Shown in pieces: positions 8,424-22,033 of a stretch of 64,000 bases of DNA (within the stretch, counting starts at the first letter, position 1; every line of letters begins with the position of its first letter). A program made the position numbers and the translations under genes. The notes below the pieces were generated by a model that was not told the origin of the DNA, did no database searches, and worked only from the letters and a program-made list of their open reading frames with translations. The stretch covers positions 1 to 64,000 of the IMG/VR virus record IMGVR_UViG_3300029915_000012; one strand, given 5' to 3'. This DNA is from a virus.

Positions 8424-10376
8424 TTAAAATTCAAATTCTAATAAATCAATAAATTTTTTACCATTTTTAGTTTTAATATCATTTATTGTTATTTTTGATG
8501 ATATAAGTTGACAGTAATATGTTAATGCATTTTTTACATCAATTAAATTTGCACAAGGAGTTTTAATATCAGAAATAACAACATAATCTTCAATATATGA
8601 TGCAAGAAAATTTGTTTCTACTTTTGATTTTTTAGATAATACTAAATTTTTATCTTTATCTAAATATATTGTTATGATATTATTATTTAATTCTATATAA
8701 CCTTCATTCGGTGTATTATGTACAATTTTTAATGAAAAATCATTTGTATGTGATGAATCATTTTGATCACTATATGATGAAGCTTGTTCTTTTATACCAT
8801 TTTTAAAATTAAATTTATTTTTCTTAATTACATGTTTACATGGAGGAACATTATATTTATTTTTTAAATATGAAAGATGAAGTTTGATGTGTTTTATTTC
8901 TGTATAAATTATAAAATTATAATTATGATATCCACATGATCTACCTGCAAAACTTTGAACAATAAAACTTGTTCTATATGTAGAATCATTAACTGTAGTT
9001 CTATCAAATAACATTACAATATTTTCTTTCTCTAATTGATATGATTGCTTCATTTTCTCCTTAATAAATATTATGGTAGGAGCATCTGGTGCATTTTTTA
9101 ATACATCATTAATAACTTCTTTATCTTTCTCATAATATGTCAAAGTTTTAAATCCATCAGGTATTAGATTATTTGTATTTGTATTTTTATTTATTCTAAC
9201 AATATAATATCCTATTTTATTATTAAAGCTTTCTGCTTCATTTATAAAATGTTTTTCACCTTCTGTTGTTGATAAATCAAATGATTCTCTTAAAAAATTA
9301 TTTTTTAAAAAATATTCTAAGCCTTTGTAATTAGGTCCGTGAGATAATTCAATAGTGTTCTTTCTTTTATATAAAATATTACCAACATGTTCTTCATACG
9401 GAGTTGCTGATATAGAAAATAAGAAAATATTTTTTTTTGATAAATCAGTTGAACCATTTAAATTTATACCATTTTTTTGAAGATAACTATTCATAGCACT
9501 ATCAACATTTGATGCTAAATGAGCTTCATCAATAAATATAATACAATTATTTAAATCACCTACTTTATTTTTTCTTGACCAACGAATTAAATCTGGATTA
9601 TGCATAATACCATTCCTCTTTAATATTTTTTGATCATCTTGCCGACACTCTCCATGAGATATGTCAGTTTTTAATTGTTCTTTATTTGAATTATCACACA
9701 TTGGAGTTATTAATACACTACTTCTAAATTTCAAATTTAGATATTCTCTTAATTCTTGATAAGTTTCTAATAAATATATTATATTACGTACAACACCAGT
9801 TTTACCTGCTTGAGTTTCTGCAGTTAACATATTATACCTACTATGTTTTGAATTAAGTTTTGATGATAACATATTATATATGCAACTTAATGATGCAAAA
9901 ATCTGATCATCAAATACGTGTGATTTATCATTAATATTATCAGTTCTATTTAATTTTTCTAATTTGATGCCAGTTAGACGATATATTTCAGAAATCAATT
10001 TATTAATACGAAATTTTATACTATGAGCTAAATTAGTATTTGCTGGAATAGTTGTGGTGGTGGTAGTTGTTTTACTATTACTATTAGCAGATTTTATTAA
10101 TTGGTGTTTTTTATTATATACAATATCTTTTAGATTTTCAATATCATATTTAGTACATTTATCATTTTTAATTCTAATATCTATTAATTTATTAATTGCA
10201 ATAAGTGCTTTTTTTCGATTAGTATTCCATTTCTTACTATATAAAGCATCAACTAATTGATCATTGCTATAACGACTAAAATCAAATTTTCTTACGTATG
10301 GTTTATTATTTTTAGTAAGTTGACCATTAATTAAATTTCTTTTAGCTTTAACACTAATAATGTTATTATTTACCAT
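8424..10376 (-). CDS. SF2 DEAH-box helicase/ATPase of phage type
   Basis: 650 residues. Walker A AETQAGKTG (~186-194), Walker B/motif II IIFIDEAH (~279-286), motif III SATP (~323-326) and a motif-VI-like QSFAGRSCGY (~474-483) make it an SF2 ATPase; the Q-A-G-K-T Walker A is unusual. Residues ~103-109 are a run of seven Thr encoded by a trinucleotide repeat. The last ~150 residues are of unknown fold. It lies directly downstream of cas3 on the same strand but has its own promoter box and is separated by a terminator, so it is probably not part of the CRISPR operon. A role in phage replication is as likely as one in interference. Confidence 0.8.
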   Translation of the reverse strand: MVNNNIISVKAKRNLINGQLTKNNKPYVRKFDFSRYSNDQLVDALYSKKWNTNRKKALIAINKLIDIRIKNDKCTKYDIENLKDIVYNKKHQLIKSANSNSKTTTTTTTIPANTNLAHSIKFRINKLISEIYRLTGIKLEKLNRTDNINDKSHVFDDQIFASLSCIYNMLSSKLNSKHSRYNMLTAETQAGKTGVVRNIIYLLETYQELREYLNLKFRSSVLITPMCDNSNKEQLKTDISHGECRQDDQKILKRNGIMHNPDLIRWSRKNKVGDLNNCIIFIDEAHLASNVDSAMNSYLQKNGINLNGSTDLSKKNIFLFSISATPYEEHVGNILYKRKNTIELSHGPNYKGLEYFLKNNFLRESFDLSTTEGEKHFINEAESFNNKIGYYIVRINKNTNTNNLIPDGFKTLTYYEKDKEVINDVLKNAPDAPTIIFIKEKMKQSYQLEKENIVMLFDRTTVNDSTYRTSFIVQSFAGRSCGYHNYNFIIYTEIKHIKLHLSYLKNKYNVPPCKHVIKKNKFNFKNGIKEQASSYSDQNDSSHTNDFSLKIVHNTPNEGYIELNNNIITIYLDKDKNLVLSKKSKVETNFLASYIEDYVVISDIKTPCANLIDVKNALTYYCQLISSKITINDIKTKNGKKFIDLLEFEF

Positions 10377-10398
10377 GGTTATATATTTTAATTACAGA

Positions 10399-10406
10399 CA
10401 AATATA
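10399..10406 (-). promoter_or_regulatory. Bacteroidetes-type -7 box TATATTTG
   Basis: TATATTTG on the minus strand, 23 nt upstream of the helicase start, with TTTG elements about 17-21 nt further upstream. Confidence 0.55.
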
Positions 10407-10427
10407 AGGATAATATTTGAAACAAAC

Positions 10428-10468: not shown

Positions 10469-12766
10469 TTATATTAAATTATCGTAAATATCATTTTTTA
10501 CTAATCCTAATTTTTCACAATAAACTTTATCAAATGCAATATATGGGGTTTCTTTTTTCCTGGCATAATCTTTAAGTATAGGTAAAGTATATTGATTATT
10601 TTTAAATAACGAATATTTATTATAAAAAAATCTATCATCCTTAATTTTTATAATATTCTTTATTATTCTCTTAATTTTACTATCTAAACCTGTTATTGGT
10701 TCAGATTTTTTAATATCTCGATTAAAATCTACACTAAATGAGTCCGTCATTTGTCTTTTTTTTGCATATTTATATATACAATATATATCTCCTCCACTTC
10801 TTAATTTAGTATTATTATTTTTAATTGTATTGTTTTTAGATTTCTCCATCATCTTATACGGTTCAATTTTACATAAATTTAATAAACTTGTTTTTAGTTT
10901 AGATGTGATAAACTTTTTTAAATTTTCATTATTTTCATTATTAAACATATTATAATATTCATATAATTCATTTATTGAATATAAATTTCCGTTAATAATA
11001 TGTTTTTTAATAAATGAAATCCATAATTTATTTAATTCTAAATCATATTGATTTGATATACTAGTGTTTTCTGAGTTTCTAAATTCACTTTTATTTTCAT
11101 TAAAAAATAAATTTATTTTTGGAGTTTTATTTTTTTTATAATAAAAATGTCCCCACCTATCACATCGACCTATTCTTTGTAAAGTAGTTTCTGGAGACAT
11201 CACACTATCTGTTAAATTTAAAAATGATATATCCATAGATGCTTGTAAAATAGGTGCTGATATAATACTATCTTTATTCAAAATATTTTTATTTTCTTTG
11301 CCATATAAATGAATAATTTTATTCATTATTTTTTCTTTATCAGAATCTATATATCTACTATGTATTAAAATATCGCCTTTTTTATAACAATATAATCTTT
11401 GAGAATTTGAAATAGAATTCATAATAACAACTGAATCTTTTTCATTAGTTATTGTATCAATATCATCAATATAATTAATCAAATATTTACCATTATGTGC
11501 AGATGTATAATGAGAATTTTTATTTGGTAAAATTTTAGTTTTTTTATCTATATTTGTTCCATCCCATAAATATTCCATTATAGTTTGTGTAGCACTTAAT
11601 AATAATGTGTGACTATTTGTTAACATATGTCTAGATTTCATGATATTAATAAAACATGCAAATAGTGCATCATCTTTAATTAATTCATGATATTCATCAA
11701 AAATCACATCACAATAATTAATAACAAATAATCTATTTCTAATAGAATTATTCACATTAGGAGATAAATAATTATCTATATTAGTTATTATAATATCAGA
11801 TGTAAATTCTTTAGTGTTTTCATTATTTGTTTTCTGTCTATTACCTGTTAAATATAACTCAACTGATAATTCAACTGATATATTTTTTAATTCTTGTAAA
11901 ACAGAATTATATACATTTTCAGCAATAATATTTCTAGGGCATACCCATATTAATTTTTTATTAGATTTTAATGACCATAATAACCCCAATAATGTTTTAC
12001 CAAAACCGGCTGGGGCTTTCATTATTGTAGTTCGATTATTTAATGATTGATTTGCGTAATCAACTTGAGAATCAAAACGAATAGAATCATAATTAATAGG
12101 TTTGCTATATACTTTAGTATCTTTATATGATAAATTGTTTATTAATTCTTCACAATAATCATCATCATACAATATTTTTTCTTGATCTGATGCTGATACA
12201 AGTCTATCAGCAGTTATAACACAAGATCTTACTAATGAATTTTTAGAATTTGTTAAACTATTTGGTTCATTTAAATAATATAATGGAGTATTGATAGATT
12301 TTTCAAAATTTATATCTTCAAATAATATATTTTCATTCATTAAAAAATTATACATTGATAAAATATTTTTTTTATCATCATCACACATATCACTTAAAAT
12401 TAATGATATATTATCATTACTTATATAATTTATTTTTGGTTTAGAATGATGCCAATATATTGAATCTAAAGAATATCTATATTCATCATTATTTAAAATA
12501 CATGACACAAATGCCCAACTTATTTCATGATGAAATATTGGAGAATTAATAAAAGAAATTGTTTTACTTTTTGATTTTATATAATTTTGAAAATCTAAAT
12601 TACATTTACCTAAATCATGCAATAAACAAGCTATTGAAATTTGTTTTTCAAGGTCTTCATTTAATGATAACTTTTTTGATAACATCATTCCTATTTTTTT
12701 AACTGCTTTTGAATGAGTTATTAATGATATTCCACTACTATTTGATACAATTTCTTCTAATTTCAT
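10469..12766 (-). CDS. cas3: Cas3, HD nuclease-helicase of a type I CRISPR-Cas system
   Basis: 765 residues. N-terminal HD nuclease with the full Cas3 set: H18 (LITHSKA), H50-D51 (CLLHDLGK), H79-H80 (FHHE), H106-H107 (YWHHSKPK), D187. SF2 helicase follows: Walker A APAGFGKT (~251-258), DEYH (~357-360), SAT (~391-393), motif VI QRIGRCDRWGH (~530-540). Cas3 is the ATP-driven 3'-5' ssDNA nuclease that Cascade recruits to the R-loop. It is full-length with all catalytic residues, so it is predicted active. It lies beyond the array on the same strand as the Cascade genes. No Cas2 fusion is seen. Confidence 0.93.
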   Translation of the reverse strand: MKLEEIVSNSSGISLITHSKAVKKIGMMLSKKLSLNEDLEKQISIACLLHDLGKCNLDFQNYIKSKSKTISFINSPIFHHEISWAFVSCILNNDEYRYSLDSIYWHHSKPKINYISNDNISLILSDMCDDDKKNILSMYNFLMNENILFEDINFEKSINTPLYYLNEPNSLTNSKNSLVRSCVITADRLVSASDQEKILYDDDYCEELINNLSYKDTKVYSKPINYDSIRFDSQVDYANQSLNNRTTIMKAPAGFGKTLLGLLWSLKSNKKLIWVCPRNIIAENVYNSVLQELKNISVELSVELYLTGNRQKTNNENTKEFTSDIIITNIDNYLSPNVNNSIRNRLFVINYCDVIFDEYHELIKDDALFACFINIMKSRHMLTNSHTLLLSATQTIMEYLWDGTNIDKKTKILPNKNSHYTSAHNGKYLINYIDDIDTITNEKDSVVIMNSISNSQRLYCYKKGDILIHSRYIDSDKEKIMNKIIHLYGKENKNILNKDSIISAPILQASMDISFLNLTDSVMSPETTLQRIGRCDRWGHFYYKKNKTPKINLFFNENKSEFRNSENTSISNQYDLELNKLWISFIKKHIINGNLYSINELYEYYNMFNNENNENLKKFITSKLKTSLLNLCKIEPYKMMEKSKNNTIKNNNTKLRSGGDIYCIYKYAKKRQMTDSFSVDFNRDIKKSEPITGLDSKIKRIIKNIIKIKDDRFFYNKYSLFKNNQYTLPILKDYARKKETPYIAFDKVYCEKLGLVKNDIYDNLI

Positions 12767-12837
12767 ATTTTTTATTTTAATTGTGAATAAAAATAATTTT
12801 TTAATTATTTATAATATAAATCATAAATTTAATTACT

Positions 12838-12855
12838 GATTTATATAAATATAAT
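12838..12855 (-). repeat. Degenerate partial CRISPR repeat at the trailer end
   Basis: GATTTATATAAATA followed by a diverged end sits exactly one spacer length (30 nt) before the first full repeat at 12886 and matches the 3' half of the repeat as read on the plus strand. The surrounding 12767-12885 is otherwise AT-rich noncoding DNA between cas3 and the array. Confidence 0.6.
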
Positions 12856-12885
12856 AAACACATATTTAAATAGTGTCACTATTTT

Positions 12886-15293
12886 GTTGAGATTCCCTTA
12901 CGGATTTATATAAATAATATCGAATTCGACTTCTGTGCGACCTTGTTCGTCGTTGAGACTCCCTTACGGATTTATATAAATAATATCTTCACTTAATGTA
13001 ATAAATTCTAAATCATGTTGAGACTCCCTTACGGATTTATATAAATAATATCTTATCATTTTTTTCAAAAATAGAAAGAGAAGTTGAGATTCCCTTACGG
13101 ATTTATATAAATAATATCTTATCATTCAGAATTATTTTTTCTTCTTTAGTTGAGACTCCCTTACGGATTTATATAAATAATATCAACTATAGAAACAATA
13201 GAAAGAGATTTATTGTTGAGACTCCCTTACAGATTTATATAAATAATATCAATATTTGTCATTTGTTTTTCTTCTATATATGTTGAGACTCCATTACGGA
13301 TTTATATAAATAATATCTAAACTGTCATCTAAATGATCATTTGATTTGTTGAGACTCCCTTACGGATTTATATAAATAATATCATTATCTGAATATGCTG
13401 CAAATCATAAACTGTTAAGACTCCTTTACGGATTTATATAAATAATATCTGCATACAGAATTCACCGTTGTAATTCATTGTTGAGACTCCATTACGGATT
13501 TATATAAATAATATCTTTAACAAGTGTCTTCCCTCCTTTTCTATAGTTGAGATTCCCTTACGGATTTATATAAATAATATCTAAATACTCTGAATATTCA
13601 ACTGGTAAGAAGTTGAGATTCCCTTACGGATTTATATAAATAATATCAAAATCATCTGTGAAAATTGGAGTTACACCGTTGAGACTCCCTTACGGATTTA
13701 TATAAATAATATCAAATTATTTTATAACTGAATATCAATCAATGTTGAGACTCCCTTACGGATTTATATAAATAATATCTGTTGTACCTAAAACTAAAAC
13801 TGTTTCTCTGTTGAGACTCCCTTACGGATTTATATAAATAATATCTAATTCTAATTCTAAATCTGTATAATCACCGTTGAGACTCCCTTACGGATTTATA
13901 TAAATAATATCTTATTTGAAAATCTTTACAAGAAAATCAGGGTTGAGACTCCCTTACGGATTTATATAAATAATATCTTACCAATTAAGAAAAAGAATTG
14001 ATACCTTGTTAAGACTCCCTTACGGATTTATATAAATAATATCTTATTAATAGATGTGCTGGCACCACCTTCGTTGAGACTCCCTTACGGATTTATATAA
14101 ATAATATCTTTTGTATTTGAAATAATATCACTTCCTTTGTTGAGACTCCCTTACGGATTTATATAAATAATATCTTATATTACTATATTTATTAAATATG
14201 ATAAGTTGAGACTCCCTTACGGATTTATATAAATAATATCTGAATCACTTTTTGTTTTACGTAGTAATTCGTTGAGACTCCCTTACGGATTTATATAAAT
14301 AATATCATCAAGAACTTCGGTTGCCTTTAATTCATTGTTGAGACTCCCTTACGGATTTATATAAATAATATCCTATAACCTCCCTATTTTTTTCATCAAC
14401 TGTTGAGACTCCCTTACGGATTTATATAAATAATATCATATAATCACTTCTTTTCCTGCTCTGCTTTGTTGAGACTCCCTTACGGATTTATATAAATAAT
14501 ATCATTGCACTAAAAATGTCATTAATAGGGTTCGTTGAGACTCCCTTACGGATTTATATAAATAATATCGCACTTTTCCCATTTTTTCTGGCTACACTTG
14601 TTGAGACTCCCTTACGGATTTATATAAATAATATCATTTCTTCTTTGAATGATTTGTAGAAATATGTTGAGACTCCCTTACGGATTTATATAAATAATAT
14701 CTAGCGTATTTGATTCTAATAAGCAATATGTGTTGAGACTCCCTTACGGATTTATATAAATAATATCACCGATTAACTCTTTTCTTAATTGACTATAGTT
14801 GAGACTCCCTTACGGATTTATATAAATAATATCTAGCGTATTTAATGTAAATAAGCAATATGTGTTGAGACTCCCTTACGGATTTATATAAATAATATCA
14901 AAAGCGAATTCAACATTGACTGACGCTCGTTGAGACTCCCTTACGGATTTATATAAATAATATCGACAAATTAAATACATATATATAACATATGTTGAGA
15001 CTCCCTTACGGATTTATATAAATAATATCTGATATAATTGAAAGTCAATCATTTTATTTGTTGAGACTCCCTTACGGATTTATATAAATAATATCCTGTT
15101 ATGTTAGAATAAGTAATTGCACTATGTTGAGACTCCCTTACGGATTTATATAAATAATATCAAATCTATTTAAAGAGATTGAACAGCTAGAGTTGAGACT
15201 CCCTTACGGATTTATATAAATAATATCTAGCAGAACAGGATAGACATCAATTCATTGGTTGAGACTCCCTTACGGATTTATATAAATAATATC
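12886..15293 (-). CRISPR. CRISPR array, 37 repeats of 36 bp and 36 spacers of 29-31 bp
   Basis: Repeats start at 12886 and recur every 65-67 bp to 15258-15293. On the plus strand each begins GTTGAGACTCCC and ends AAATAATATC. Repeats 1, 4, 6, 7, 9-12 and 18 carry substitutions (for example GAGATTCCC, CCATTACGG, GTTAAGACTCC) while repeats 19-37 are identical. Together with the partial repeat at 12838 this places the old, leader-distal end at low coordinates and the leader at 15294-15394, so transcription is on the minus strand like the cas genes. Read that way the repeat ends GTCTCAAC, a plausible 8-nt crRNA handle. The internal palindrome ATTTATATAAAT is conserved in all copies. Confidence 0.98.
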
Positions 15294-15394
15294 AGGATAT
15301 TTATAATTAATTGATATTGAGTTATTTATAGTATATATTAATAAATAAAAATGAGTTATTAATATACGTATATCATTATATTTATTCATTTTTA
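15294..15394 (-). promoter_or_regulatory. Probable CRISPR leader
   Basis: 101 nt of AT-rich sequence without genes between the conserved end of the array and the cas6 stop. It may hold a promoter, or the array may be read through from the cas operon; no clear TAnnTTTG box is visible on the minus strand. Confidence 0.5.
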
Positions 15395-16099
15395 TCATAC
15401 TAATTTATATTTATCTTTATTTTCTGTTTTATAAATTGTACCAAATCCAGAACCAGTTGATTGTCCTATACCTAAATTATAAATTTTTTCTGCCACATCA
15501 GATGAACAAAATATACTAATGTGACATTGATTAGCTTCATTTTTGACATTTTTAACCATTATTTTCTTTACTTTATGTGAAGGATGATTTATTATTTTAA
15601 CATCAAAATCTTTTAAATTAATACCGTTATAAATTTTACTCAATTTTTTTATAATATGGTTTTTTACAATATATACGAAATCAGAATCATTTAAAGTTGA
15701 ATAAGTATATTTCTTTTTATTAATATGCTTTCTAATAATAAATGGAGATAATGTTGCGAAATGATTCCATCCATTTATAAATTTTTCAAAGATAAAATTA
15801 ATTTTATTAAATTTCATTCCCCAATTTAAATCTTGATTAGACATCACTCCACTTATTAAATCATTCAAAAATTCTTCATTTTTTGAAGTTACTACAATAA
15901 TTCCTCCATTCTTAAATGATAAATGTAACTTATCTTCAGTTAGGTTTCCACCATATAAAGATGATATAGAGTAATCATTTTTAGAATCATGATATTTATT
16001 ATTAACTCCAAGACATTTGTGTATATAATAATTAATATATGATTGATTCTTAATCGGTACCAATGTTTTATTTTCTGTAAATTCAATTTTTATTCTCAT
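15395..16099 (-). CDS. cas6: Cas6 crRNA-processing endoribonuclease
   Basis: 234 residues, the normal Cas6 length. A ferredoxin-like start MRIKIEFTENKTLVPI, a central ATLSPFIIRK of the kind conserved in Cas6, and a C-terminal glycine-rich loop GIGQSTGSGFG (~210-220) that matches the Cas6 G-loop. It would cut pre-crRNA in each repeat. It is the Cas6 of type I-A/B/III style, not the shorter Cas6f. Start overlaps the cas5 stop by 17 nt, so it is cotranslated. Next on the same strand is the array. Confidence 0.88.
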   Translation of the reverse strand: MRIKIEFTENKTLVPIKNQSYINYYIHKCLGVNNKYHDSKNDYSISSLYGGNLTEDKLHLSFKNGGIIVVTSKNEEFLNDLISGVMSNQDLNWGMKFNKINFIFEKFINGWNHFATLSPFIIRKHINKKKYTYSTLNDSDFVYIVKNHIIKKLSKIYNGINLKDFDVKIINHPSHKVKKIMVKNVKNEANQCHISIFCSSDVAEKIYNLGIGQSTGSGFGTIYKTENKDKYKLV

Positions 16100-16982
16100 A
16101 TTCTTCTAATTTATTAATATTAATATAACTATCTAAATCATTTTCAATCATTTCATCTTCATTTATCAAATCTTCTATCCAAACAAATCCTCCATCTAAT
16201 AACGTTGCACAACCTTTTGAATTTTTAATTTTGTCAACATATTCTGATGTTAAAGGAATTATTATAGAACCACTAATTTTTGTAATATTATCAATTCCTC
16301 TAATATTTGTTAATGTAGTTTTTGGATTTTGACCAATTGTTATTGCTGATTGATTTACAATACCAATAAGAAGATTTGCAATTGGAGTTTTATTATTTTT
16401 AACTAATTTTTTACAAAAAATTGTAAAATCAGAATTATCATTATATTGTTTAATGAAATTTGCAAATTTTATTTTGCTATTATTTTTTATTTCATTATTA
16501 ATATCTATAACTAATTTAGAACTACTATAATATGTAATAATCTCTTTTATTATATACATTGCAGGTTTTGATTTAACATCATAACCTAATATATTATTAA
16601 ATAAATTAATCATTTCTATAAATAGATCAGTAGTTAAATAACATTCTAGATTTTCCCAATAAATAAAACTTCTTTTTTTATCTCTATAGCTATCATAAGC
16701 AAATTTATTTGTTTGTATAAACTCATTCATATAACACATTTTACCACTAGATTTATTTAAAAATCTTGTTGTATCTATTTTTATATAAGCTAAATTAGCT
16801 ATATTAAATATATCTGATATAGGTTTAATTAATGTATCTCTATATGTTGGACTTGGACGTTCACCCATTAAAACATGCAGCATGTTACTTATTTGATGAA
16901 CACTTATACTAGGTTTTTGATTATTAGTTGCTTTTTCAAAAAATCCAGCATCTTTAAATGACAATTTTAAAAAATATTCCAT
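16083..16982 (-). CDS. cas5: Probable Cas5-family Cascade subunit
   Basis: 299 residues. The N terminus MEYFLKLSFKDAGFF looks like the first strand of a Cas5 RAMP domain, followed by LHVLMGERPSPTYRD; residues ~110-210 are mostly helical. The assignment leans on position between cas7 and cas6 (cas7-cas5-cas6 is the usual order). It is longer than most Cas5 (~220-250), and no Cas8 is encoded nearby, so the extra helical part might substitute for the large subunit as described for the type I-Fv (I-F2) Cas5fv. That is inference. Ten nt separate it from cas7. Confidence 0.7.
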   Translation of the reverse strand: MEYFLKLSFKDAGFFEKATNNQKPSISVHQISNMLHVLMGERPSPTYRDTLIKPISDIFNIANLAYIKIDTTRFLNKSSGKMCYMNEFIQTNKFAYDSYRDKKRSFIYWENLECYLTTDLFIEMINLFNNILGYDVKSKPAMYIIKEIITYYSSSKLVIDINNEIKNNSKIKFANFIKQYNDNSDFTIFCKKLVKNNKTPIANLLIGIVNQSAITIGQNPKTTLTNIRGIDNITKISGSIIIPLTSEYVDKIKNSKGCATLLDGGFVWIEDLINEDEMIENDLDSYININKLEEYENKN

Positions 16983-16992
16983 ATTATTAGAA

Positions 16993-18066
16993 TTATTTAG
17001 CTTCTTTTTGAGATTTTAATTTAGCTTCTTTTTTTTCTTTTTTATCATCTTTAGCTTTCAATTTAGCATCTATTCTTTTTTTAATTATAATAGATCTCTT
17101 ATCTGACAATTCTATATCTAAAGTTTTTGCATTTTCAAAATCATATTCAGTATAAAAATTTTCATTTTCAAAATTTAAATTATCTATAACATCTTTTGTT
17201 AATTCAATCCATCCATCAGAATTATTTTTTTTATCATTAAATACGTCATATACTAATTTAATTTTAAGTTTAGACGTAACAACACTAGATCCAGATTTAT
17301 AAATATTCATTTTTAGCATTTTATATAATAGATTTTTTGTTAGTTCAACAACATCTGTATTGGATAATAAAAAACCATATTCTGGTAATTCAACAACACT
17401 ATTTGTAATCCTATAATATTTTAATTCCGAATTAAATGATGGTAATCTTTTTTTCAATAATTCTGAATATAAAGGAAATAAATCTGGATTGAATGCTAAT
17501 CGATCTAAATTTTTAGAACAACTAATAAATTGCATTTGCATTAAATCAATATTACCATCAGTCTCATATGTTATATCTCCTACAGTTTCTTTGTTAAATA
17601 ATGAAGTATCACTTATTTTTTCACCACTAACTGTCATAAGTTCTATTTTTGATTTACAATTATTTGTTTGTTCAGCGTCAATTATACATAAAACACTTTT
17701 TCTTCTAATTGTTTTATCAATCTCATCTTCATTCAATGCAAATAAATGACCTCTATTTATAATTGCAGGAGAAGCCAACATTGACACAAGTAAATAATTA
17801 TTATGCAATATATTTGGAGATTGAAATGGAATATCATCAATAAAAATATTATGTCTTAAACAATTACTAGAAATTTTTATTTTATAATCATATTCACCAT
17901 TACTTTTCTGATATATATTTTTTTTTGCAAATATTAAATTATTATCAGTTTCATACTTTCCACCACTAATTTCATTCCATATCCATTTTTGTCCATTACT
18001 ATCACAGTTAACAACACCATTACCTTCTAATTCCATTTTAAATAAAATGTTCTTTACTTTTTTCAT
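16993..18066 (-). CDS. cas7: Probable Cas7-family Cascade backbone subunit
   Basis: 357 residues, first gene of the cas7-cas5-cas6 operon. IKISSNCLRHNIF (~63-75) resembles the S-S-x-x-L-(K)-R palm motif of Cas7 proteins that bind crRNA, and SPAIINRGHLFA...RRKSVLCIIDAEQ follows. The C terminus (~325-357) is a K/E-rich tail. In Cascade, several Cas7 copies coat the spacer part of the crRNA. I cannot assign it to a named Cas7 subfamily; composition of the locus (no Cas8) is closest to minimal type I systems. Confidence 0.75.
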   Translation of the reverse strand: MKKVKNILFKMELEGNGVVNCDSNGQKWIWNEISGGKYETDNNLIFAKKNIYQKSNGEYDYKIKISSNCLRHNIFIDDIPFQSPNILHNNYLLVSMLASPAIINRGHLFALNEDEIDKTIRRKSVLCIIDAEQTNNCKSKIELMTVSGEKISDTSLFNKETVGDITYETDGNIDLMQMQFISCSKNLDRLAFNPDLFPLYSELLKKRLPSFNSELKYYRITNSVVELPEYGFLLSNTDVVELTKNLLYKMLKMNIYKSGSSVVTSKLKIKLVYDVFNDKKNNSDGWIELTKDVIDNLNFENENFYTEYDFENAKTLDIELSDKRSIIIKKRIDAKLKAKDDKKEKKEAKLKSQKEAK

Positions 18067-18131: not shown

Positions 18132-18395
18132 TTAATTAAAAATATTATTCAATTTTTTCAATTTAATTTTTCTAATCTCATTTTTTCTATAAAAATAAGT
18201 ATATAAATATTCTTCATCACGTTTAAAAGATGAATAAGCATTTTTATCATCAGATATCAAATACTGATAATCATCATCATAATTAATAATAAAATGAACA
18301 ATATAATATCTATCTTTATGATATATTGAATATGATGTTGTTAAATCTTTTTTACATAATAACTTATCTCCTACATTAAGATTCTGATTCTTCAT
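18132..18395 (-). CDS. Tandem GDKLLCK family protein, copy 15 (last)
   Basis: 87 residues. Starts MKNQNLNVGDKLLCKKDL and ends FYRKNEIRKIKLKKLNNIFN. The family plan is: M-(K/N)-x-Q-(N)-(I/L)-N-x-G-D-K-L-L-C-K at 1-17, a variable aromatic-rich middle with a K-Y-Y core, then Y-F-Y-T-K-x-E-x-R-K-I-K-L-x-K-L. This last copy is the one nearest cas7. Its start overlaps the end of copy 14 by 20 nt. The fold is probably a small beta-barrel plus a C-terminal helix (inference); function unknown. Confidence 0.85.
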   Translation of the reverse strand: MKNQNLNVGDKLLCKKDLTTSYSIYHKDRYYIVHFIINYDDDYQYLISDDKNAYSSFKRDEEYLYTYFYRKNEIRKIKLKKLNNIFN

Positions 18396-18642
18396 AAATT
18401 TTTTCTAATTTAATTTTTCTTTCTTCTTGTTTAGTATAAAAATGTTCAGACATCTCTTTTATGCTAAATGAAAATGGTAATATTCTATCATTTTCATCAT
18501 TAAAATAATAACAATATTCATAAGGACCGTATACTACCATAACAATATAATAATTATCAACATATAAATATTTATTTGCTCCAACTAGAAGATTTTTTTT
18601 ACATAATAATTTATCTTCATCATTAATATCCTGTTTCTTCAT
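18376..18642 (-). CDS. Tandem GDKLLCK family protein, copy 14
   Basis: 88 residues, MKKQDINDEDKLLCKKNL; the conserved Gly of GDK is changed to Glu. Middle YVDNYYIVMVVYG. Tail YTKQEERKIKLEKIYEESES. 20-nt overlap with copies 13 and 15. Confidence 0.85.
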   Translation of the reverse strand: MKKQDINDEDKLLCKKNLLVGANKYLYVDNYYIVMVVYGPYEYCYYFNDENDRILPFSFSIKEMSEHFYTKQEERKIKLEKIYEESES

Positions 18643-18895
18643 AAAGTTTTTCTAATTTTATTTTTCTCTCCTCTTGTTTAGTATAAAAATGTTCATAAAA
18701 AAATCTAACGCTATATCTAAAAGAATAATATTTTTTTTTATCAAATTCTATATAATAACAATAATCAGTATTATTGTCAAATAATTTAATATCATAAACA
18801 ATATAATATTTATTTTTATTAAAACTTGCATATAATTCATTTAAATTTTTTTTACACAATAACTTATCACCTACATTAAGATTCTGATTCTTCAT
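18623..18895 (-). CDS. Tandem GDKLLCK family protein, copy 13
   Basis: 90 residues, MKNQNLNVGDKLLCKKNL at the start and YTKQEERKIKLEKLYEETGY at the end; middle NKYYIVYDIKLF. 20-nt overlaps on both sides. Confidence 0.85.
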   Translation of the reverse strand: MKNQNLNVGDKLLCKKNLNELYASFNKNKYYIVYDIKLFDNNTDYCYYIEFDKKKYYSFRYSVRFFYEHFYTKQEERKIKLEKLYEETGY

Positions 18896-19142
18896 AAAGT
18901 TTTTCTAATTTAATTTTTCTCTCTTCTTGTTTAGTATAAAAATGATTTAGTAATTCATTTTTATTTAAAAAATATGGATATATTCCATTAGATTCATTAA
19001 ATATACAGCAGGCAAAACCTTTAAATGAATCATTCAGAATTTTATGATAAATATAATATTTACATTCTATAAAATGTGTACTATAATTAGCTATTAAATC
19101 TTTTTTACATAATATTTTATCACCTTCATTAAAATTATTCAT
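18876..19142 (-). CDS. Tandem GDKLLCK family protein, copy 12
   Basis: 88 residues, short N terminus MNNFNEGDKILCKKDL shared only with copy 10, and a middle (ECKYYIYHKIL..GFACCIFNESNGIYPYFL) clearly closest to copy 10. Overlaps copy 11 by 8 nt and copy 13 by 20 nt. Copies 10-11 and 12-13 therefore look like a duplicated two-gene block. Confidence 0.85.
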   Translation of the reverse strand: MNNFNEGDKILCKKDLIANYSTHFIECKYYIYHKILNDSFKGFACCIFNESNGIYPYFLNKNELLNHFYTKQEERKIKLEKLYEESES

Positions 19143-19386
19143 AAAGTTTTTCTAATTTGATTTTTCTTTCTTCTTGTTTAGTATAAAAATACTGATGTAA
19201 ATATGATTCACTAAAAAATGGTAATATTGTATTGAATTCTGATCTTAAATCATAAAAATATTCACTATAATCAGTTGAAAAATTTTTAATATCATCTACA
19301 TAATAATATTTATCTTTAATAAATATTTTATCAATCTCCTCTTTACATAATAATCTATCTCCTACATTAATATTCTGTTTCTTCAT
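19135..19386 (-). CDS. Tandem GDKLLCK family protein, copy 11
   Basis: 83 residues, the shortest copy. MKKQNINVGDRLLCKEEI start; tail YTKQEERKIKLEKLYE stops early, giving the 8-nt rather than 20-nt overlap with copy 12. Confidence 0.85.
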   Translation of the reverse strand: MKKQNINVGDRLLCKEEIDKIFIKDKYYYVDDIKNFSTDYSEYFYDLRSEFNTILPFFSESYLHQYFYTKQEERKIKLEKLYE

Positions 19387-19633
19387 AAAGTTTTTCTAAT
19401 TTTAATTTTCTAATCTCATTTTTCATAAAAAAATGACCAACTAAATCATGTTCAGTTAAATAATATGAAAATATATTATTAGATTCACTTATATAACAGC
19501 AGTAAAAATCATTAAAAATACCACTAAACATATTATCATGAAAAATATAATAATCACCTTCTATAATATGGTTACCATAATAAGTTAAATCCTTTTTACA
19601 TAATATTTTATCACCATCATTAAAATTATTCAT
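19367..19633 (-). CDS. Tandem GDKLLCK family protein, copy 10
   Basis: 88 residues, MNNFNDGDKILCKKDL start like copy 12; tail FMKNEIRKLKLEKLYEETEY. Overlaps copy 9 by 8 nt and copy 11 by 20 nt. Confidence 0.85.
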   Translation of the reverse strand: MNNFNDGDKILCKKDLTYYGNHIIEGDYYIFHDNMFSGIFNDFYCCYISESNNIFSYYLTEHDLVGHFFMKNEIRKLKLEKLYEETEY

Positions 19634-19901
19634 AATTTTCTATTTTATCTAATTTTCTTTTTCTTTCTTCTTGTTTAGTATAAAAATATTCATATAAATC
19701 TTCTTCACCACAAAATAATATTAAATTATCATCATCATCAAATAAATAATAATAATAAAAATCCACACCGCTTATAGTATTAGAAATAATATAAATTGAT
19801 ATCATAGCATAATATTTGTCTATTTTGAAATTTTTATTTATATTAATTATATTATATTTACATAATAAATTATCTCCTACTTTAAGATTTTGATTCTTCA
19901 T
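19626..19901 (-). CDS. Tandem GDKLLCK family protein, copy 9
   Basis: 91 residues, MKNQNLKVGDNLLCKYNI; middle Y-rich (DFYYYYLFDDDDNL); tail YTKQEERKRKLDKIENYE. 20-nt overlap with copy 8, 8 nt with copy 10. Confidence 0.85.
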   Translation of the reverse strand: MKNQNLKVGDNLLCKYNIININKNFKIDKYYAMISIYIISNTISGVDFYYYYLFDDDDNLILFCGEEDLYEYFYTKQEERKRKLDKIENYE

Positions 19902-20157
19902 AAAGTTTTTCTAATTTGATTTTTCTTTCTTCTTGTTTAGTATAAAAATATTCACAAAATTCTCCGTAATATCTAAAATTAACAGGTTGATATTGTTCAC
20001 ATATAAGCATATAAATATAATCAGTATAATTATTATTAGTTGGAGTAATTTCACAAACATAATAATATTCAAATTCAATAAGATATGTACTTTCTGAATT
20101 AAAAAGATTTTTTTTGCATAATAATTTATCTCCTACATTAATATTCTGCTTCTTCAT
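19882..20157 (-). CDS. Tandem GDKLLCK family protein, copy 8
   Basis: 91 residues, MKKQNINVGDKLLCKKNL start; middle IEFEYYYVCEITP; tail YTKQEERKIKLEKLYEESKS. 20-nt overlaps on both sides. Confidence 0.85.
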   Translation of the reverse strand: MKKQNINVGDKLLCKKNLFNSESTYLIEFEYYYVCEITPTNNNYTDYIYMLICEQYQPVNFRYYGEFCEYFYTKQEERKIKLEKLYEESKS

Positions 20158-20407
20158 AAAGTTTTTCTAATTTAATTTTTCTTTCTTCTTGTTTAGTATA
20201 AAAATATTTACAAAATTCTTTTTCATCACAACATACCAATGATTCGAAATCGTCTAAATAATAGAAATAATAATCTTTACGAGCTACATTAATAATATCA
20301 ATATATTTAATATAATAATATTTACCTTTTATAATATATGTAGAATTTGATAAAAAACTAATCTTACATAATAACTTATCTCCAATATTAATATTCTGCT
20401 TCTTCAT
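20138..20407 (-). CDS. Tandem GDKLLCK family protein, copy 7
   Basis: 89 residues, MKKQNINIGDKLLCKISF start; middle IKGKYYYIKYIDI; tail YTKQEERKIKLEKLYEEAEY. 20-nt overlaps on both sides. Confidence 0.85.
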   Translation of the reverse strand: MKKQNINIGDKLLCKISFLSNSTYIIKGKYYYIKYIDIINVARKDYYFYYLDDFESLVCCDEKEFCKYFYTKQEERKIKLEKLYEEAEY

Positions 20408-20672
20408 TTTTTAATTTTTCTAATTTAATTTTTCGTACTTCATTTTTAGTATAAAAATAATCATCAAATTCTTCTATATAATAGAAATCTTTATTGGTAT
20501 CATCTATTATATTATATTTATAATAAAGTACATCAATGTCAGCACTCAAAAGTACATCAAAGTCAGCACTCAAAATTATATATTCTACACCTTTCGTTAA
20601 TGTCAGATATGATTTATTAACATCAATTTTACACAATAATTTATCTCCTATATTAAAATTTTGATTCTTCAT
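20388..20672 (-). CDS. Tandem GDKLLCK family protein, copy 6, with internal duplication
   Basis: 94 residues from the ATG at 20672. A longer frame reaches 20750, but the 20672 start gives the family N terminus MKNQNFNIGDKLLCK and the usual 20-nt overlap with copy 5. The middle holds an in-frame 24-bp duplication at 20526-20573 (SADFDVL / SADIDVL). Tail YTKNEVRKIKLEKLKNEEAEY. Confidence 0.85.
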   Translation of the reverse strand: MKNQNFNIGDKLLCKIDVNKSYLTLTKGVEYIILSADFDVLLSADIDVLYYKYNIIDDTNKDFYYIEEFDDYFYTKNEVRKIKLEKLKNEEAEY

Positions 20673-20940
20673 GAAGTTTTTGTAATTTAATTTTTCTAGT
20701 TTCGTTTTTTGTGTAAAAATAAGTATAAATATCTTCATATGAACAAACAATATTCATTTTTTCATTTCCTATGGTCATATAATAATATGCATTATCAATA
20801 TTAAAAAATTTATTATCAATATTAAAAAATTTAATATCATAAACAGTATAACATGAATTTAGTATATAATATTCAAAATTTGGATGAAATATACGTTTAC
20901 ATATTAATTCATCTCCTATATTAAGATTCTGTTCCTTCAT
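20653..20940 (-). CDS. Tandem GDKLLCK family protein, copy 5, with internal duplication
   Basis: 95 residues, MKEQNLNIGDELICKRIF start; the middle repeats KFFNIDN twice through a 21-bp duplication near 20800-20840. Tail YTKNETRKIKLQKLHEESKF. 20-nt overlaps on both sides. Confidence 0.85.
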   Translation of the reverse strand: MKEQNLNIGDELICKRIFHPNFEYYILNSCYTVYDIKFFNIDNKFFNIDNAYYYMTIGNEKMNIVCSYEDIYTYFYTKNETRKIKLQKLHEESKF

Positions 20941-21190
20941 TACCCAACTTTTTTAATTTAATATTCCTAACTTCCTTCTCAGTGTAAAAAAATTCATAAA
21001 TATCTTTTTCATACTGAACTTCTACCTTTACATTATTATCATCAATTATATAAATAAAAGTATAATATTCAGTCTCAAATAAACTATCACTTATAATATA
21101 TTCGTTCCCTTTATGAATAGATATCTTATGATGAATATAATCTTTTTTGCATAATAATTTATCTCCTACTTTAAAATTATGATCCTTCAT
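20921..21190 (-). CDS. Tandem GDKLLCK family protein, copy 4
   Basis: 89 residues, MKDHNFKVGDKLLCKKDY start; tail YTEKEVRNIKLKKLGNEGTES. Overlaps copy 3 by 14 nt and copy 5 by 20 nt. Confidence 0.85.
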   Translation of the reverse strand: MKDHNFKVGDKLLCKKDYIHHKISIHKGNEYIISDSLFETEYYTFIYIIDDNNVKVEVQYEKDIYEFFYTEKEVRNIKLKKLGNEGTES

Positions 21191-21470
21191 TTATTTCATT
21201 TAATTTCATGCTTCTAATTTCATTTTTAGTATAAAAATAAGTATATAAATATCTTTCCATCCAAAATGAATATCGTTCATTATTATCATCAATTATATAA
21301 TAAAAATATTCATTATAATCCACAAAAATATCATTAATTAATCTAATTTCATCAACAACATAATATTTACCTTTTTTAAAAAATAATAATGAAGTATTAT
21401 TAGATACCAATGATTTTAAATCATTTTTGCATAATAATTTATCTCCAATATTAAGATTCTGTTTATCCAT
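21177..21470 (-). CDS. Tandem GDKLLCK family protein, copy 3
   Basis: 97 residues, MDKQNLNIGDKLLCKNDL start; longer middle with FFKKGKYYVVDEIRLI; tail YTKNEIRSMKLNEINEGS. Overlaps copy 2 by 8 nt. Confidence 0.85.
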   Translation of the reverse strand: MDKQNLNIGDKLLCKNDLKSLVSNNTSLLFFKKGKYYVVDEIRLINDIFVDYNEYFYYIIDDNNERYSFWMERYLYTYFYTKNEIRSMKLNEINEGS

Positions 21471-21786
21471 TTATTTTCTGCAATTTCTTATTTCTTAATT
21501 CTTTTTTTTCATAAAAATAATCATGAAAAAAACTTTCAGACCAAAATGAACATGATTTATTCATTTCTCCATTTATATAATAAATATAATCATCTTGTCC
21601 AAATATATGATCACATGTATTCTTATAAGCATATTTATCATCTATTATTTTTATATCAACAATAGAATAATATTTATCTTTTATAAAATGAGAAAATATT
21701 ATTAATTTATCATCACTAATTAAATTTTGAAATAAATCTTTTTTACATAATAACTTATCTCCTAAATTAATATTCTTTTTCGTCAT
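21463..21786 (-). CDS. Tandem GDKLLCK family protein, copy 2 (longest)
   Basis: 107 residues, MTKKNINLGDKLLCKKDL start. It has ~15 extra residues in the middle compared with its siblings. Tail YEKKELRNKKLQKING. 20-nt overlap with copy 1. Confidence 0.85.
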   Translation of the reverse strand: MTKKNINLGDKLLCKKDLFQNLISDDKLIIFSHFIKDKYYSIVDIKIIDDKYAYKNTCDHIFGQDDYIYYINGEMNKSCSFWSESFFHDYFYEKKELRNKKLQKING

Positions 21787-22033
21787 TTTTTAATTTGTTT
21801 AATTTTATTTTTCTTTCTTCTTGTTTAGTATAAAAAACATCATAAAAATCAACTTTACGTAGATATAATAAATTTTTGCTATTTTTTTCTTTTAATGAAT
21901 AAAAATTACTACTATAAAATATGTTAGTATTAACTATTTCATATTCTCTATCTTTATAAAAAACTTCAGTATAATTATAATAACTATTTTTGCATAATAA
22001 TTTATCTCCAATATTAATATTCTGTTTATCCAT
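21767..22033 (-). CDS. Tandem GDKLLCK family protein, copy 1 (first intact)
   Basis: 88 residues, MDKQNINIGDKLLCKNSY start; middle YKDREYEIVNTNIFY; tail YTKQEERKIKLNKLKNDEKEY. It is preceded by the stump of a further copy, overlapping it by 8 nt, so the original array was longer. Confidence 0.85.
   Translation of the reverse strand: MDKQNINIGDKLLCKNSYYNYTEVFYKDREYEIVNTNIFYSSNFYSLKEKNSKNLLYLRKVDFYDVFYTKQEERKIKLNKLKNDEKEY

Follow-up and report, generated by a model that had tools for sequence, protein, structure and literature searches.

How can a type I CRISPR (clustered regularly interspaced short palindromic repeats)-Cas system dispense with both Cas8 and the adaptation genes, and what are its closest relatives? 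The question is raised by a locus in a 64,000-nucleotide stretch of viral DNA, positions 1 to 64,000 of the IMG/VR record IMGVR_UViG_3300029915_000012 (hereafter, the window), which is part of a 100-kb viral record. The locus spans positions 10469-18066 on the minus strand and, in the order of transcription, encompasses the genes for Cas7, Cas5, and Cas6, a CRISPR array, and the gene for Cas3. A preliminary description made from the sequence had named these components, including an array of 37 repeats, and the open reading frames (ORFs) and the array were indeed found at these positions. We conclude that the locus is, with high probability, a phage-carried, Cas8-less type I effector module that represents a sister lineage of I-F2 (I-Fv) and occurs almost only on phage contigs.

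Searches of viral contigs and genome contigs identified the module in 16 distinct loci, 15 on IMG/VR contigs, the longest of 597 kb, and one on a scaffold of a Bacteroidetes metagenome-assembled genome (MAG). This scaffold (L046) is itself phage-like and also contains a gene fragment with similarity to a T4-type capsid gene. Fourteen of the 16 loci are complete, each with an array; the other two, L038 and L041, are truncated where their contigs end. All-against-all comparison of the ORFs from the complete loci, with frames inside arrays or opposite cas genes set aside, detected cas3, cas7, and cas5 in all 14 and a Cas6b-like gene in 13; no other family was present in more than three loci. The most common gene order is cas3-cas7-cas5-cas6-array, the order cas7-cas5-cas6-array-cas3 is shared by the window phage, its relative L029, and L046, and two loci deviate (the array precedes cas3 in L008, and cas6 comes first in L044). 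T4-type capsid and/or terminase matches were found in nine of the 13 phage records analyzed, and proteins of the window phage match phage DNA polymerase, single-strand binding protein, and helicases. In a screen of 396 Bacteroidota genomes with the Cas7fv model, the only matches were to the MAG with the phage scaffold and to one fragment in another genome. Apparently, the module lineage is virus-specific.

The 357-aa product of cas7 (16993-18066, minus strand) is a Cas7fv-like backbone subunit, best matched by the PADLOC model Cas7fv (E-value 4.4e-13), followed by Cas7f (9.5e-10). It also matches NCBIfam NF040577 (2.1e-19, at 70 bits, under the equivalog cut-off of 200) and PDB 5o6u (1e-7). 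A profile built from 15 phage Cas7 sequences retrieved from PDB Cas7fv chains alone above chance (1.4e-31), with no other Cas7 family reached, and the commonest Cas7b model gave weak matches to just four of these 15 proteins.

The 765-aa Cas3 (10469-12766, minus strand), identified by PADLOC, NCBIfam, and motifs, combines an HD nuclease with a DExH helicase and has no Cas2 domain. Its best PADLOC match is Cas3fv (6.5e-66), with Cas3b as the runner-up (7.6e-38), and the match to cas3_HD (7.2e-17) is above the NCBIfam cut-off. The HD residues (H18, H50-D51, H79, H106-H107, and D187) and the helicase motifs (GFGKT, DExH, SAT, and QRxGRxxR) are intact, in agreement with the earlier claim of a full Cas3, and the hallmark of type I, Cas3 with an HD nuclease and a superfamily 2 helicase, is thus present in the module. 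None of the 16 phage Cas3 proteins has lost the signature residues of either domain, apart from isolated exceptions in helicase motif VI and at flanking positions. Phage Cas3 aligns with a plasmid Cas2-Cas3 fusion from the HD domain on, past the Cas2 part. The 16 phage proteins group into a single clade in the Cas3 tree (support 97/93), and the phage and I-Fv proteins together are separated from I-B, I-C, and Thermus Cas3 with 100/99 support.

Cas5 (299 aa; 16083-16982, minus strand) was assigned as Cas5fv-like from its predicted fold, gene position, and co-conservation. Hidden Markov model searches for Cas5 gave no family match, and a Cas5 profile compared with PDB sequences gave matches at chance level only. 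An AlphaFold model derived from 13 homologues (predicted local distance difference test score, pLDDT, of 78.4) retrieved from PDB, by Foldseek, only two significant matches, 9g44_B (1.8e-4) and 5o6u_F (2.5e-4), both of which are Cas5 chains of I-F2 complexes; the next match was at 0.29. An earlier model from five sequences (pLDDT 64.7) had shown no significant fold match and was superseded by the 13-sequence model, and a search of predicted viral structures produced nothing significant, the best match being an uncharacterized phage protein (E-value 0.034). The cas5 gene follows cas7 in all 14 complete loci. Judging from sequence for Cas7 and Cas3 and from the predicted fold for Cas5, the nearest kin of all three proteins appears to be I-F2. 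The concern that the proteins taken for Cas5 and Cas7 might be something else is not borne out by the Cas7fv profile match and the I-F2 Cas5 fold match.

The Cas5 model contains a helical insert (residues 109-205; 16368-16658, minus strand) that consists of seven predicted helices between strands. In Cas5fv, a six-helix domain takes the place of Cas8 and reads the protospacer-adjacent motif (PAM) (PMC6546366). By topology, the insert is a candidate counterpart of this α-helical domain, and PAM recognition by the insert appears plausible. The proposal that Cas5 carries the PAM-sensing role can therefore be retained as plausible, but not as a novelty, this role being established for I-Fv (PMC6546366).

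The 234-aa Cas6 (15395-16099, minus strand) is a Cas6b-like endoribonuclease identified by PADLOC (Cas6b, 6.5e-36) and NCBIfam (TIGR01877, 6.1e-22, above the cut-off), in accord with its description as a Cas6 of the I-B/III style; H37 and a glycine loop (residues 210-220) are invariant among 13 phage homologues. The window repeat contains a weak hairpin, TCC-GTAAG-GGA. Repeats are 36 nt long in the complete loci, with spacers mostly of about 30 nt, L045 excepted. That locus encodes, instead of the Cas6b-like protein, a Cas6e-like protein (5.6e-22 to the Cas6e model; gene at L045 12038-12556) next to an array (12723-14142) with a 32-nt, strong-hairpin repeat and 32-38-nt spacers. The sequences thus suggest that Cas6 and the repeat were swapped together in L045. 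The 5' part of the L044 array (12122-12480) has 51-nt repeats, composed of the 36-nt repeat extended by a tandem duplicate of the final 15 nt (TAAGGTAATCACAAC), and the 3' end of this array has mostly 36-nt repeats.

The Cas6b-like Cas6 and the 36-nt repeats would fit a canonical I-B or type III-like system, with Cas8 or Cas10 encoded elsewhere in the phage or supplied by the host. The I-F2-like Cas7, Cas3, and Cas5 fold argue against this possibility, as do the lack of a recurring extra gene near the module and of Cas8f in the 13 phage records, and we consider it extremely unlikely. The preliminary description had reported neither Cas8 nor adaptation genes and had left room for them elsewhere in the genome. 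Searches for Cas1 in the 100-kb record and in seven longer records (up to 256 kb) from the window phage were negative, as were those for Cas2 and Cas8f in the 256-kb record; across the 13 phage records (~3.2 Mb in total), which, like those of the window phage, are contigs of unestablished completeness, none of Cas1, Cas2, and Cas8f was found. For other Cas8 families (Cas8b included) and Cas10, the argument is that no extra gene recurs near the module, in place of a family-by-family search of the whole genomes.

If the adaptation genes are missing, did these arrays acquire spacers at all? The window array (12886-15293, minus strand) consists of 37 repeats of 36 nt (in the cas-gene sense, GATATTATTTATATAAATCCGTAAGGGAGTCTCAAC) and 36 spacers of 29-31 nt; 28 of the 37 repeats are perfect, and none has more than two mismatches to the consensus. 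A putative AT-rich leader (15294-15394, minus strand) lies between cas6 and the first repeat. The leader-adjacent repeats are perfect, with the mutated ones confined to the far end, and in most arrays of the family, mismatches to the consensus increase from 5' to 3' in the cas-gene sense, as expected with spacer addition at the 5' end. We compared 210 spacers with ~2.1 Mb of phage sequence, for which the maximum in a reversed-spacer control was 25/31. Three spacers matched their own genome: L044 spacer 3 (30/30), L037 spacer 7 (30/30), and L044 spacer 7 (27/30). The protospacers are located in phage G018 (L151 8372-8401, 30/30, and 10380-10409, 27/30; the 5' flanks end in ATTA in both cases) and in phage G014 (L177 15118-15147, 30/30; the 5' flank ends in GAAT). 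None of the three shows a GG motif as in I-F. Within the window array, two spacers (14702-14731 and 14834-14863) are identical at 26 of 30 positions, which might reflect the recording of two variants of a single target.

The own-genome matches indicate that DNA from the same phage, or from a close sibling, has entered the arrays, and, together with the repeat decay, the exact self matches imply that the arrays did acquire spacers. Presumably, these were added by host Cas1-Cas2 in trans, the simplest source because no adaptation genes were found aboard; spacer acquisition through host adaptation proteins in trans has been shown for a type IV plasmid system (PMC11656645). No cellular array carrying the family repeat turned up, the repeat core being absent from the 395 other sampled Bacteroidota genomes save for one near-match. 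The Bacteroidetes MAG that includes L046 also has a contig (C107; locus L070) with Cas1 and Cas2 genes and an array of 37-nt repeats unrelated to the phage repeat.

No spacer among the 210 matched another phage above 25/30. The window array had no target among curated phages and plasmids, two other family arrays had none among curated phages, and two spacer patterns searched against viral contigs retrieved their own arrays only. These results bear on the alternative that the complex binds DNA without destroying it, acting in gene silencing or as a sponge for host CRISPR RNAs or adaptation proteins, with Cas3 idle. Two exact and one 27/30 own-genome spacers would suit binding or tolerance better than cutting, and the spacer searches revealed no outside targets. 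The retention of the HD and helicase motifs in every phage Cas3 is nevertheless hard to reconcile with selection for binding only, and the self-matching spacers are just three of 210. We regard this alternative as unlikely.

Yet another possibility is that the module is a remnant of a host I-F2-like system that was caught by phages and is passively kept in an inactive state. The seven longer records of the window phage (181-256 kb) share with the window an identical 21-kb stretch, all 36 spacers included, so that the array is the same in eight records; this observation, along with the missing adaptation genes and the degenerate repeats at array ends, is compatible with such a remnant. However, the four genes are intact in the 14 complete loci, having diverged to about 20-60% identity with the catalytic residues kept, and the module is nearly absent from the sampled cellular genomes, which makes an inactive remnant very unlikely.

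For the preferred reading, a phage-carried effector module related to I-F2, the following scheme can be proposed. Cas6 would cut the array transcript near the small repeat hairpin, leaving a 5' handle of ~8 nt, predicted to be GTCTCAAC in the window phage and ATCACAAC in most relatives. Cas5, Cas7, and Cas6 could then form a complex in which Cas7 subunits cover the spacer and Cas5 holds the handle, while the helical insert, by analogy with I-Fv, would read the PAM and open the target duplex in the stead of Cas8. Cas3 would be recruited and, as its motifs suggest, destroy the target DNA. The phage itself would be unable to make memories, and spacers likely enter one end of the array by the action of host Cas1-Cas2 on phage DNA. 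The most likely use of such a module would be competition with other phages or mobile DNA sharing a host. A broader scenario, which we offer tentatively, is that a complete four-protein, Cas8-free, DNA-cutting effector has been maintained in an ancient lineage of large phages, in which Cas6 is swapped together with the repeat (Cas6b and Cas6e) and host adaptation proteins are recruited to store spacers from phage DNA, including that of the phage itself; bacterial I-F2 might even descend from such phage modules, and not the other way round.

Several observations weigh against this assignment and scheme. The I-Fv side of the Cas3 tree comprises three plasmid sequences only, and a Cas7 tree that included an I-B outgroup left the root and the branching order unresolved. 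The identity of Cas5 hangs on the predicted fold: comparison of phage Cas5 with plasmid Cas5fv by BLASTP and profiles gave nothing usable, and the global TM-scores of the model against the I-F2 Cas5 chains are low (0.28-0.30), so that the resemblance to Cas5fv is at the domain level. Cleavage of the window repeat by Cas6 is a predicted activity, and some repeats in the family lack a predicted stable hairpin. A capsid and terminase search of the window phage gave no match. In an active system, and with a PAM present, self-matching spacers would be deleterious, and the PAM itself was not obtained because no protospacer was found outside the phages' own genomes.

Among known systems, I-F2, exemplified by Shewanella putrefaciens CN-32 (PDB 5o6u; also 9g44) and by plasmid copies in Acinetobacter and Legionella, has the nearest Cas7, Cas3, and Cas5 fold, with about 25-30% identity in Cas7 and Cas3 and none detectable in the Cas5 sequence. 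It shares with the phage modules the lack of Cas8 and the cas3-cas7-cas5-cas6 order found in most of the phages. In contrast, I-F2 has Cas6f (Csy4), a Cas2-Cas3 fusion, and Cas1f, whereas the phages have a Cas6b-like or, in L045, Cas6e-like protein, a Cas3 without the Cas2 part, and no Cas1f in the phage records. The repeat of I-F-type systems is 28 nt long, compared to 36 nt in the phage modules (32 nt in L045), with spacers of ~30 nt, and the phage modules, unlike I-F2, reside on large phages. By definition, then, the module falls outside I-F2, yet I-F2 is what it most resembles in its working parts. The preliminary description had set the system apart from I-Fv by Cas6 and the Cas2-less Cas3, but Cas7, Cas3, and the predicted Cas5 fold are all I-F2 kin. 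An I-F2 sister variant in which Cas6 has been replaced and adaptation genes are lacking is a better description of the module than an unrelated subtype.

The type I-F system of Vibrio phage ICP1, from the wider I-F group, is likewise phage-borne but complete, with an adaptation module (PMC11656645); the modules described here have neither adaptation genes nor Cas8. Huge-phage CRISPRs without adaptation genes have been described in general terms (PMC7162821), and an I-C-like type I variant from huge phages similarly lacks Cas1 and Cas2 (Al-Shayeb et al. 2020; PMC7162821), but it is also devoid of Cas6 and uses a different helicase instead of Cas3, whereas the present modules have Cas6 and a true Cas3. 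Type IV-A (Csf) systems resemble these modules in being located on mobile elements, often without adaptation genes, but use CasDinG; here, a true HD-Cas3 is present, with no CasDinG and no Cas8-type subunit. An I-F variant intermediate between I-F1 and I-F2 is mentioned in the 2025 classification, the text of which gives no detail on it (PMC12669027). No account of the phage variant was found in the literature examined, which left out Al-Shayeb et al. 2022 (Cell, virus-encoded CRISPR), so a prior description is possible.

The phage modules represent a second family of Cas8-free Cascades, divergent from the first and combining three small subunits with a compact Cas3 of about 765 aa; they therefore offer a test of the minimal requirements of a type I effector and of PAM reading by Cas5. 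They also provide a case of Cas6 and repeat exchanged as a unit, and the self-derived spacers and polarized arrays make spacer gain by phage CRISPRs without adaptation genes testable. Small type I effectors are sought as genome-deletion tools, and I-Fv has already been used for this purpose (PMC12714560).

With regard to the surroundings of the locus, a 330-kb relative of the window phage (G009) encodes homologues of 292 of the 422 window-phage ORFs. A 650-aa helicase-like protein (AETQAGKTG and DEAH motifs; 8424-10376, minus strand) adjoins cas3; it is retained only in the sister phage L029 and is therefore probably not part of the CRISPR module. Immediately upstream of cas7, about 15 tandem paralogous ORFs of 83-120 aa (MKKQNINVGDKLLCKK...YFYTKQEERKIKLEKL) occupy positions 18132-22033 on the minus strand, and their kin is also located upstream of cas7 in L029.

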